Source: Bacteroidota bacterium
GTDB taxonomy: Bacteria; Bacteroidota; Bacteroidia; Cytophagales; Cyclobacteriaceae
DNA: 55,689 nucleotides
Direction of reading: 5' to 3'
NCBI GenBank assembly: GCA_947470895.1
Contig: CANIVF010000025.1
Location: forward strand, 1 to 55,689
In this document: one piece after another, positions 7,431 to 14,938 of the stretch
Layout of the letters: each line of letters opens with the position of its first letter
How positions within the stretch are numbered: the stretch's first letter is position 1
Translations under genes and position numbers: made by a program
The notes under the pieces: model-generated
The model's database searches: none
What the model was told of the DNA's origin: nothing
The model's input: only the letters and a program-made list of their open reading frames with translations

Positions 7431-8210
7431 CTATTTCGATCTGATAGACCGAACAAATGACTTAATATCAAAAGGTAAATCATTGCTTTCCTTGAGAGCT
7501 GTGATGAATGAACTACCCACGATGGCACCCGCTGCGTAAGAACATGCTTGCGAATAAGTTTTAAAATCAAAGATACCAAATCCAATCAGGAACGGGTTTT
7601 CTAAATCCAACGATTGAAGTTTTTTAAAGTAAGAAATCTGCTCCTCTGAAAATTCTTTCTTTGCTCCTGTTGTACTGGATGATGAAACCGCATAAATGAA
7701 TCCACTGCTCACAGAATCAATCTGCTTAATGCGCACTTCTGAAGTGGTTGGTGAAATCAAAAAGGAAACACTCAGATTCAATGACTCGGCCAGAGACTTA
7801 TAGGTATTCACATATTCGTGCAAAGGCAGATCGGGTAAAATCAAACCATCAACACCAGCGGCAGCAGCATCGCGAAAGAATTTTTCTACCCCATATTGCA
7901 TCACTGGATTTAAGTAGCCCATCAAAATCACGGGGGTGGTGACTGTAGATCGTAACTCTCTAACCTGGTTGATTAACAAGGATAGATGCATACCTTGATC
8001 CAAAGCAATCTTATTGCTTTCTTGAATCGTTGGTCCATCGGCAATCGGGTCTGAGAAAGGAATTCCAATCTCAATAATGTCGGCACCTGCTGCTTCCAGT
8101 GATTCGGCAATTCGTCTAGTATCATTCAACAAAGGAAATCCGGCCGTATAAAATATGTTAAGAATATTTTTTCCCTTCTTCTCAAACAGATCTGTAATTC
8201 GGTTTTTCAT
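7431..8210 (-). CDS. trpA: Tryptophan synthase alpha subunit
   Basis: A 259-residue TIM-barrel protein that cleaves indole-3-glycerol phosphate to indole and glyceraldehyde 3-phosphate. The signature IEIGIPFSDPIADGPTIQ carries the catalytic Glu and Asp, DGLILPDLPLHE the second acid region, and the phosphate-binding glycines lie in GFGI and GAIVGSS. Length and start fit the family. It is the last gene of the trp operon, one base after the stop of a DUF1684 gene that separates it from trpB. TrpA and TrpB normally form an alpha2-beta2 complex that channels indole. Confidence 0.97.
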   Translation of the reverse strand: MKNRITDLFEKKGKNILNIFYTAGFPLLNDTRRIAESLEAAGADIIEIGIPFSDPIADGPTIQESNKIALDQGMHLSLLINQVRELRSTVTTPVILMGYLNPVMQYGVEKFFRDAAAAGVDGLILPDLPLHEYVNTYKSLAESLNLSVSFLISPTTSEVRIKQIDSVSSGFIYAVSSSSTTGAKKEFSEEQISYFKKLQSLDLENPFLIGFGIFDFKTYSQACSYAAGAIVGSSFITALKESNDLPFDIKSFVRSIRSK

Positions 8211-13372: not shown

Positions 13373-14776
13373 TCAAATTTTTTCGGCTAACACCATGGCC
13401 TTGCGCAAGGCTTCCAATTTATTATTTACTTCCTGTAATTCGCTTTCCGCGGATGACTTGGCTACCACACCTGCACCTGCCTGATAGATCAATGCATTAT
13501 CCTTACTTAAAAAAGTACGGATCATAATGGCATGATTAAATGATCCATCGAAGCCGAGGAATCCAATAGCGCCACCATAGAAACTGCGATTTATATTCTC
13601 ATAGTCATTGATCAGCGTCATCGCCATATGCTTGGGTGCACCCGAAAGCGTGCCGGCCGGAAACGTATCGGCAGCAATCTGTATAACGGATGACCCTGGA
13701 TTTAATGTGCCCGTCACTTTCGAAACGAGGTGAATAACATGAGAGTAGTATTGAATCTCTTTAAAAACTTCTACATGCACTTCACTGGCATTGCGACTCA
13801 AATCATTGCGCGCTAAGTCTACCAACATTACGTGTTCGGCATTCTCTTTCACATCGGCTGATAATTTCTCTGCCAGCAAGGCATCTTCCTGATCGTTACC
13901 TGATCTTCTAAAAGTTCCTGCTATCGGATAAATATGTGCCTTCCCTTTAGCTACTTGGATCTGCGCCTCAGGCGATGAGCCAAACAACTTAAAGTTTCCG
14001 TAATCAAAGTAGAATAAGTAAGGAGATGGATTGATGGAACGTAGACTGCGATACACGTTGAATTCATCACCTTTAAACCCAGCCGTAAACCTGCGGGATA
14101 GTACGATCTGAAAAACATCACCCCGGTAGCAATGTTGCTTTCCTTTTTCGATGATCTCTAAAAACTCCCCATCGTTGTAATTCGAAACTTCTTCATTGGC
14201 GCGCGTAAACCTGAACGTGGTTACACGATTGTTGTTGATCAACTGCTCTAAACGATCGAGTGAAGGGCCAATCTCATTGCCTTCTACTACATGTTCAAAC
14301 AAGGTAAGTTCGTTATAGAAATGATCGACCACAATTACATACCTGAAAAGTGAATAGATTATATCCGGCAGTTCGGTTTTGGTTTTTTGAATGGGTACCT
14401 GCTCAAAATATCGGATGGCATCGTAGGCCATATAGCCGAAAAGACCATCATGCGGATACTTGGATCTGATCGAAGAGTCTATCTGAAATGAATTTTTAAA
14501 CTCTTCAAGAAGTTGTGTTACCTGACCTGCTTTATTGATAGCAATCTTTGTTGAAGGTTTGCCGGGCAGTGATATTTCTGCCTGTTCCAGATAAACCCTA
14601 AATGTAGCCATCGGATCGCAGCAGATGAACGAAAGACTGTTTTCGTGGCCGTGGTAATCCGAACTTTCCAGCAAGATACTGCCTGCAAATATATCCCTTA
14701 GCTTAAGGTAGATATTCACTGGAGTCAGGGTATCCGCCAGCATCTTTTTGGAGTATGTCTTTAGTTGAAAATTCAT
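13373..14776 (-). CDS. trpE: Anthranilate synthase component I
   Basis: A 467-residue chorismate-utilising enzyme that makes anthranilate from chorismate. The tryptophan feedback motif LLES is seen in SILLESSDYHG near residue 36, so end-product inhibition is expected. The catalytic half has QIVLSRRF, NPSPYLFYFDYG, PIAGTFRRSG, LVDLARNDLSR, TFPAGTLSGAPK and the closing GAGVVAKSSAESELQE. It is the first structural gene of the trp operon. The sequence between it and the upstream bTHX gene contains a leader peptide and an attenuator, the likely control point. Confidence 0.98.
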   Translation of the reverse strand: MNFQLKTYSKKMLADTLTPVNIYLKLRDIFAGSILLESSDYHGHENSLSFICCDPMATFRVYLEQAEISLPGKPSTKIAINKAGQVTQLLEEFKNSFQIDSSIRSKYPHDGLFGYMAYDAIRYFEQVPIQKTKTELPDIIYSLFRYVIVVDHFYNELTLFEHVVEGNEIGPSLDRLEQLINNNRVTTFRFTRANEEVSNYNDGEFLEIIEKGKQHCYRGDVFQIVLSRRFTAGFKGDEFNVYRSLRSINPSPYLFYFDYGNFKLFGSSPEAQIQVAKGKAHIYPIAGTFRRSGNDQEDALLAEKLSADVKENAEHVMLVDLARNDLSRNASEVHVEVFKEIQYYSHVIHLVSKVTGTLNPGSSVIQIAADTFPAGTLSGAPKHMAMTLINDYENINRSFYGGAIGFLGFDGSFNHAIMIRTFLSKDNALIYQAGAGVVAKSSAESELQEVNNKLEALRKAMVLAEKI

Positions 14777-14810: not shown

Positions 14811-14847
14811 TATAAAATAAGAAAGCCCACTGTGAACAGCAGGCCTT
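14811..14847 (-). terminator. trp attenuator: intrinsic terminator (arms 3 and 4)
   Basis: On the minus strand an 11-bp stem forms between AAGGCCTGCTG (14847-14837) and CAGTGGGCTTT (14832-14822), with loop TTCA and three G-U pairs, followed by the U-rich run CTTATTTTATA (14821-14811). It lies between the leader peptide and trpE, where only a conditional terminator makes sense. Arm 3 also pairs with the sequence at the leader stop codon, making the two folds exclusive. It would also serve as the normal 3' end of the bTHX transcript. Confidence 0.82.
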
Positions 14848-14879
14848 CGGCAAAATTATAGTTACATAGCAAGGCTGCT
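14838..14879 (-). promoter_or_regulatory. trp antiterminator (arms 2 and 3)
   Basis: On the minus strand AGCAGCCTT (14879-14871) pairs with AAGGCCTGCT (14847-14838) in nine base pairs with one bulged C, across a 23-base loop. Using arm 3 here prevents the terminator. Arm 2 begins inside the TGA stop codon of the leader peptide, so a ribosome that finishes the leader covers arm 2 and frees arm 3 for the terminator, while a ribosome stalled at the Trp codons leaves arm 2 free. This is the logic known for the enterobacterial trp leader. Arm 1-2 pairing is weak (GGCT with AGCC only). Confidence 0.75.
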
Positions 14880-14938
14880 CACATATCGAAGTTCGATTTG
14901 TGCCACCACCAAGCCATATTAACGTTCTTCATCATCAT
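14879..14938 (-). CDS. trpL: trp leader peptide (19 residues, three consecutive Trp)
   Basis: The frame reads MMMKNVNMAWWWHKSNFDM and stops with TGA at 14881-14879. Three tandem TGG codons (14911-14903) are very unlikely by chance in this position, directly before a terminator/antiterminator pair and trpE. The first ATG is two bases after the bTHX stop codon, so the peptide is probably translated by ribosomes that have just finished bTHX. The start could also be the second or third ATG (14935, 14932). The peptide is expected to act only as a sensor of charged tRNA-Trp. Confidence 0.85.
   Translation of the reverse strand: MMMKNVNMAWWWHKSNFDM

Follow-up and report, generated by a model that had tools for sequence, protein, structure and literature searches.

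Locus upstream of trpE and conservation of the leader frame

The window, by which we mean the whole 55,689-nt stretch of DNA analysed here, carries on its minus strand a proposed operon in the order trpE-trpG-trpD-trpC-trpF-trpB-(DUF1684)-trpA, extending down to position 7431. trpE, trpG and trpF each match several protein models, some of them under their curated cut-offs. The best model for trpE, TIGR00564, was matched with an E value of 2e-123, yet the score of 412.7 bits is below the curated cut-off of 517.7. A DUF1684 gene (PF07920; 8212-9120, minus strand) lies between trpB and trpA. Upstream of trpE are the gene for ribosomal protein bTHX, a leader peptide frame and two hairpins (Table 1). 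The frame of 19 codons with three TGG codons, noted before trpE in the preliminary description, is read directly in the sequence.

Table 1. Features of the trpE upstream region in the window
Feature	Position	Strand	Basis
Promoter-like sequence, Bacteroidota type (TTG at 15178-15176, 19 nt, TAATATTG at 15156-15149)	15178-15149	minus	8 of 9 consensus positions
bTHX gene, 62 aa	15129-14941	minus	TIGR04560 ribo_THX, 38.4 bits (cut-off 26); precedes the leader in relatives
Leader peptide frame MMMKNVNMAWWWHKSNFDM, 19 codons	14938-14879	minus	Sequence; ATG 2 nt past the bTHX stop codon
1:2 hairpin (protector), holding the Trp codons and arm 2	14923-14861	minus	Folding, comparison
Three tandem Trp codons (TGG x3), proposed stalling site	14911-14903	minus	Sequence; recurrent in relatives
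Leader stop codon TGA	14881-14879	minus	Read from sequence
Arm 2 core UGAGCAGC	14881-14874	minus	Pairing comparison, folding
3:4 terminator hairpin, 12 pairs, loop UUCA	14848-14821	minus	Terminator scan, folding, comparison
Arm 3 core GCUGUUCA (pairs with arm 2), formed by the upper part of the terminator 5' arm and by the loop	14840-14833	minus	Pairing comparison, folding
T-rich terminator tail TTATTTTATA	14820-14811	minus	Sequence, terminator scan
trpE, ATG at 14776	14776-13373	minus	TIGR00564

The comparison comprised 160 loci, and the region upstream of trpE was readable in 156; L003 and L160 (no trpE match) as well as L002 and L096 (match starting late in trpE) were left out. The 156 loci consist of a genus set of 54 (the window, genomes of its genus and five named relatives, L004-L007 and L031) and 102 others. 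A leader frame with tandem Trp codons was found upstream of trpE in 127 of the 156 loci, but since these 127 are related and include duplicates (L005 and L115 are identical over the stretch, others nearly so), the counts of loci are not independent. The TGG run is conserved in relatives, as the preliminary description had proposed to check, with WWW in 124 loci. Within the genus set the leader was present in 53 of 54 loci (50 with WWW, three with two Trp), the sole exception being L125, where the contig ends 40 nt upstream of trpE. Outside it, an ATG-started WWW frame was present in 74 of the 102 loci, and this strict frame was absent in 28. With a looser definition (at least two Trp in a frame no longer than 60 codons, start codons other than ATG accepted) a leader was detected in 141 of the 156.

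One alternative to a regulatory leader is that the downstream hairpin is only a constitutive terminator of bTHX, with the WWW frame accidental and trpE transcribed from a promoter further downstream. An ATG-started WWW frame arose in the leader-trpE interval in 20 of 200,000 mononucleotide shuffles, a chance of about 1 in 10,000 that argues against an accidental frame.

A second alternative concerns what the leader peptide senses. TnaC acts as an arrest peptide through which the ribosome senses free tryptophan, and the leader, likewise a short Trp-containing peptide before a Trp-related operon, might do the same rather than respond to uncharged tRNA-Trp. However, past the Trp run the peptides differ in sequence and in how far away the stop lies (3 to 17 codons), and the target is a biosynthetic operon, which is expected to be switched on upon lack of Trp. 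A His codon does follow the Trp run in most of the genus set, but its conservation is explicable by RNA pairing, because it sits in the CAC/GUG part of the 1:2 stem. We thus consider an arrest peptide highly unlikely.

Terminator, 1:2 hairpin and antiterminator

A terminator scan over 801 nt returned two terminator-like sites (shuffles: mean 0.5, s.d. 0.8), one of which is the 3:4 stem. The 143-nt leader had a folding energy of -44.8 kcal/mol, compared to -29.9 kcal/mol (s.d. 3.3) for its shuffles (z = -4.5). The terminator originally described was retained in amended form, since its stem has 12 pairs, not 11. Its T-rich tail, TTATTTTATA, is weaker than a pure U tract. All 127 tandem-Trp loci contain a terminator-like hairpin, the weakest at -12.1 kcal/mol. 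Among 127 shuffled sequences, 61 had any such hairpin and five had one of -12 kcal/mol or better, a threshold that was chosen after the fact.

The pairing of arms 1 and 2 had initially been thought weak. This view had to be abandoned, as folding gave a strong 1:2 hairpin of -24.5 kcal/mol. Across 19 relatives carrying the window's version of the antiterminator (version A; see below), 9 of its 24 pairs had changes on both sides, and 77.2% of cells were paired. Taking 1:2 and 3:4 together in these sequences, changes on both sides occurred in 26 cells, compared to 13.1 in shuffles, none of 500 of which reached 26. The proportion of paired cells was 84.6%, as against 33.6 to 44.9% when the pairing was slid. 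Two weaker measures, the number of pairs with a double change and the pair types, were matched by 20 and 26 of the 500 shuffles. The outer part of the 1:2 hairpin is poorly conserved, and some of its pairs fail in most sequences. RNAalifold, unaided, predicted both 1:2 and 3:4 in version A. In version B it predicted 1:2 and part of 3:4 (four terminator pairs only), probably because the arms there are poorly aligned.

An antiterminator competing with the terminator had also been proposed. The competition was upheld, but in another register: the conserved helix starts at the stop codon, pairs (G)UGARCAGC with GCUGUUCA(C) and extends into the terminator loop. In this register, UGARCAGC:GCUGUUCA, 98.4% of cells were paired in the 19 version-A sequences. 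The register first suggested, AGCAGCCTT with AAGGCCTGCT, was rejected; among the 19 relatives it had 78.4% of cells paired, no double changes and a result not above shuffles. Note that in the window alone the earlier register is slightly better (-10.4 kcal/mol versus -9.1 kcal/mol for a simple version of the conserved register), so that a single sequence would mislead. The version-A 2:3 helix is nearly invariant and equal to its shuffles. Because it hardly varies, covariation within version A is uninformative for this helix. Support for 2:3 comes instead from version B and from swapping arms.

Version B comprises 32 distinct genus-set loci, in which the arm 2 cores vary from species to species, with corresponding changes in their partners (GATCGG/CCGATC, AGGTTCGG/CCGAATCT, TGAATCGG/CCGATTCA and TCGGGG/CCCCGA). 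Most cores pair with CCGATC-like partners; in two of the 32 loci, L113 and L132, the best core is unlike the others. In 26 of 32 loci the core lies 13-15 nt past the last Trp codon, within the coding part. The version-B cores are ungapped and were selected by how well they pair, which accounts in part for their perfect pairing; the swap blocks serve as the control. Version-A arms paired with their own partners at -13.5 kcal/mol and with version-B partners at -8.9 kcal/mol, and version-B arms with their own at -17.2 kcal/mol and with version-A partners at -11.7 kcal/mol. For all 127 loci, the arm 2 region combined with its own arm 3 gave a mean of -12.9 kcal/mol, compared to -10.1 kcal/mol (s.d. 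0.23) for permuted partners, with none of 10,000 permutations as low. The locus's own arm 3 ranked in the better half of all partners in 107 of 127 loci and in the best 5% in 33, a figure lowered by relatives that share arms. In 63 of the 127, own pairing was better than that of shuffled regions (5% level); distant loci may pair in ways outside the coverage of the arm test. Flavobacteriia-type loci, viewed by eye, have an arrangement that suggests pairing of arm 2 (GUCGUGA) with the loop and 3' arm (UCACGAC). The matching arm differences, as seen in the two versions, the swap and the permutation, are the main evidence for selection on 2:3.

These differences also bear on the constitutive-terminator alternative. 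The hairpin does come after bTHX, and a sigma-70-like match at 14781-14752 (one of 3 found, compared to 2.0 in shuffles) could be taken for a promoter of trpE itself, although this consensus is not that of the phylum. However, arms 2 and 3 differ in matching ways, and loci lacking a bTHX match also retain both the WWW leader and a terminator-like hairpin. This explanation is therefore very unlikely.

Attenuation model and the bTHX setting

We then considered the structures predicted for different positions of the leader ribosome, using assumed footprint sizes. With a ribosome at W1 or W3, 2:3 had the lowest energy at each of four 3' ends from 14833 to 14823, whereas with a ribosome at the stop codon only 3:4 was predicted. 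Without a ribosome the predicted fold was 1:2 with 3:4. Once the terminator is complete, 3:4 is favoured over 2:3 by a few kcal/mol even with a stalled ribosome. The switch must therefore be kinetic, its outcome depending on timing.

In the proposed mechanism, RNA polymerase would start before bTHX, as the promoter-like sequence suggests, and transcribe bTHX and then the leader. Ribosomes ending at the bTHX stop codon would restart 2 nt downstream on the leader frame. When charged tRNA-Trp is scarce, a ribosome stalling on WWW would open the 1:2 hairpin, and the freed arm 2, from the UGA stop on, would pair with the 5' arm and loop of the terminator, allowing the polymerase to read into trpE. 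With plentiful Trp, the ribosome would reach the stop codon and cover arm 2, and the 3:4 terminator would form, giving a short bTHX-leader RNA with its end near 14811. If the leader is not translated, 1:2 would hold arm 2 and termination would ensue as well.

The region has the parts that define ribosome-mediated trp attenuators: a tandem-Trp leader frame directly before a trp gene, an intrinsic terminator between leader and first gene (from sequence and shuffles), and, from predicted structures and comparison, an antiterminator and a 1:2 hairpin, the former incompatible with the terminator and the latter with the antiterminator. The attenuation originally suggested is supported, since relatives share the Trp run, the terminator, the antiterminator and the 1:2 hairpin, and since the 2:3 partners vary between lineages in matching ways. 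The region before trpE is thus very probably a ribosome-mediated transcription attenuator of the trp operon. This reading draws on the parts, their conservation, the matching arm differences and the states predicted by folding, from which we infer the response to Trp and the read-through. T-box, TRAP and TrpR control trp genes elsewhere. However, an Rfam search of the window at the gathering score returned no family, T-box included, and the TrpR and TRAP models (PF01371, PF02081) had no match in the genome, while control genomes gave matches. Control of this operon by any of the three is extremely unlikely.

A bTHX match precedes the leader in 52 of the 53 leader-bearing genus-set loci. The distance from the bTHX stop codon to the leader ATG is at most 4 nt, or the two overlap, in 44 of these 52 loci (overlapping in 10), and at most 18 nt in 51. 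In L094 the bTHX match runs into an early stop 79 nt before the leader; L120 has no bTHX match, but by eye a bTHX-like tail ends ~170 nt before the leader. No bTHX match was obtained in the 102 upstream regions outside the genus set (at most 700 nt before trpE, E 0.01). In the wider family, 60 of 148 genomes had a bTHX match, a count made with one short query and likely to contain misses. trpE could be placed in 57 of the 60; bTHX lies less than 1 kb before it on the same strand in 30 and does not in 27. At 30 bTHX loci, the window and three other genus members included, trpE follows on the same strand in 23, and in 19 of these 23 the ATG of a Trp leader is within 20 nt of bTHX. Two loci, L187 and L188, in which a Trp leader and trpE likewise follow, have bTHX frames of ~147 and ~199 codons, where 60 is usual.

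Bacteroidota promoters follow the pattern TTG, 17-23 nt, TAnnTTTG. At least 8 of the 9 positions of these textbook boxes were matched in 41 of 50 distinct stretches upstream of bTHX, compared to 11% of shuffles. With boxes adjusted after this result had been seen (TTG or TTT, 17-21 nt, TAnnnTTG, 14-27 nt from the ATG), the pattern was present in 49 of 50 stretches and in 0.65% of shuffles. The TAnnTTTG box is also named in PMC6414381. We infer one transcript, with bTHX first and the attenuator as its end.

The stop and start codons, 2 nt apart in the window, are placed as in termination-reinitiation pairs. Judged from this spacing, there is about an even chance that the leader is read by ribosomes re-initiating after bTHX. 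A rival to this step, in which the attenuator works in the same way, is that the leader initiates on its own and the contact with bTHX reflects compact packing. Leaders without a bTHX match in front exist outside the genus set, and therefore re-initiation is not needed in general. In addition, Bacteroidetes dispense with Shine-Dalgarno motifs both at first initiation and in overlapping genes (PMC6728339). Independent initiation is nonetheless somewhat doubtful, given the close spacing or overlap in most genus-set loci and the fact that only 3 of 50 sequences had at least 7 of 9 promoter positions within the final 90 nt of bTHX.

With re-initiation, the trp operon of this family would be a conditional extension of the bTHX mRNA, which would normally end at the attenuator. 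The sensing ribosome would have come straight from completing bTHX and restarted on a leader whose start codon touches or overlaps the bTHX stop codon; we find the grounds for and against this reading evenly balanced. If it is true, Trp synthesis would need both active ribosomal protein synthesis and a lack of charged tRNA-Trp, and enzyme supply would therefore be tied to ribosome building. The bTHX arrangement would offer a natural way to time the sensing ribosome without a Shine-Dalgarno motif. A conserved ribosome-mediated attenuator would also imply that in Bacteroidota the ribosome and RNA polymerase keep close to each other as they move.

Relation to known leaders

Whether this form had been described was left open in the preliminary description. 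The kind of attenuator is already known in the phylum: Bacteroid-trp (RF01692) is listed in Table 1 of PMC2864571 (Weinberg et al. 2010), and PMC6414381 describes its conservation upstream of the F. psychrophilum trp operon and compares it to the leader of E. coli. For amino acid operons of the same species, PMC9723704 reports strong indications of attenuation by upstream leader peptides. In the open-access literature searched, we found no paper on the pairing of bTHX with a trp leader or on a trp attenuator of Cytophagales.

Like the window leader, RF01692 stands before trp genes, has Trp codons within a long 1:2 hairpin and carries the terminator 5' arm AAGGC as its 3'-terminal segment. The window aligns to all 131 positions, in the right place and on the right strand, with its Trp codons and terminator arm in register, but at 25.5 bits, below the cut-off of 49. 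In contrast to RF01692, it has different arm sequences and lies directly behind bTHX. A direct scan at E <= 0.5 reported none of 10 genus-set loci, although 50 of the 54 carry the WWW frame; the present model thus misses this branch. Of 10 order loci, L151 passes the cut-off and L141, at 48.4 bits, is 0.6 short. The gap is bridged by loci outside the genus set, 12 of 18 chosen ones passing. In whole-genome searches, in which only some candidates were scored, 8 of 198 class genomes and none of 39 near relatives passed. Nine weak matches were obtained in the near relatives, seven of them just before trpE (five in genus members, two in order members) and two elsewhere. The window leader looks like a diverged relative of RF01692, a non-member by score, that should work alike.

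The enterobacterial trp leader has Trp codons and 1:2, 2:3 and 3:4 pairings directly before trpE, as does the window. It differs from the window, where the stop codon is the first part of arm 2, the terminator loop takes part in the antiterminator, and a ribosomal protein gene precedes the leader. The corresponding model, RF00513 Trp_leader, matches the window weakly (20.0 bits, cut-off 41) and matches weakly in 5 of 20 loci (10 from the genus set and 10 from the order).

An attenuator leader behind a ribosomal protein gene also occurs in E. coli rplT-pheM-pheST. The pheM attenuator responds to Phe and regulates a tRNA synthetase. Between rplT and pheM there is an intergenic region, whereas the start and stop codons of bTHX and the leader touch or overlap. 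PMC5371410 mentions the pheM attenuator as well as the intergenic region between pheM and rplT. As far as our searches go, the novelty lies in where the attenuator sits, directly behind a ribosomal protein gene whose stop codon touches the leader start codon, and in the retention of this placement in many species of a single family.

Several loci in the comparison have further elements near trpE. In six (L042, L063, L079, L072, L039 and L081) two consecutive Trp-rich leader frames, each followed by a terminator-like hairpin, lie within ~380 nt before trpE, possibly as tandem trp attenuators. Three of the six have the common peptide end WLWWGNTFLC. Two are from Rufibacter, and in both of these the first hairpin has a poor T tail. 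Flavo-1 RNAs (RF01705) occur near trpE in two loci (L040:1476-1555 and L057:4478-4558, minus strand). In Xanthocytophaga flavus a tRNA-Trp gene (anticodon CCA; L047:2894-2967) lies between the trp attenuator and trpE, oriented with trpE. The same placement was found at L141:694-767, apparently the same record as L047, and at L143:262-335 (minus strand). The attenuator would thus control an extra copy of the tRNA that it senses; a second tRNA-Trp is present elsewhere in both Xanthocytophaga-genus genomes searched (L203 and L204).
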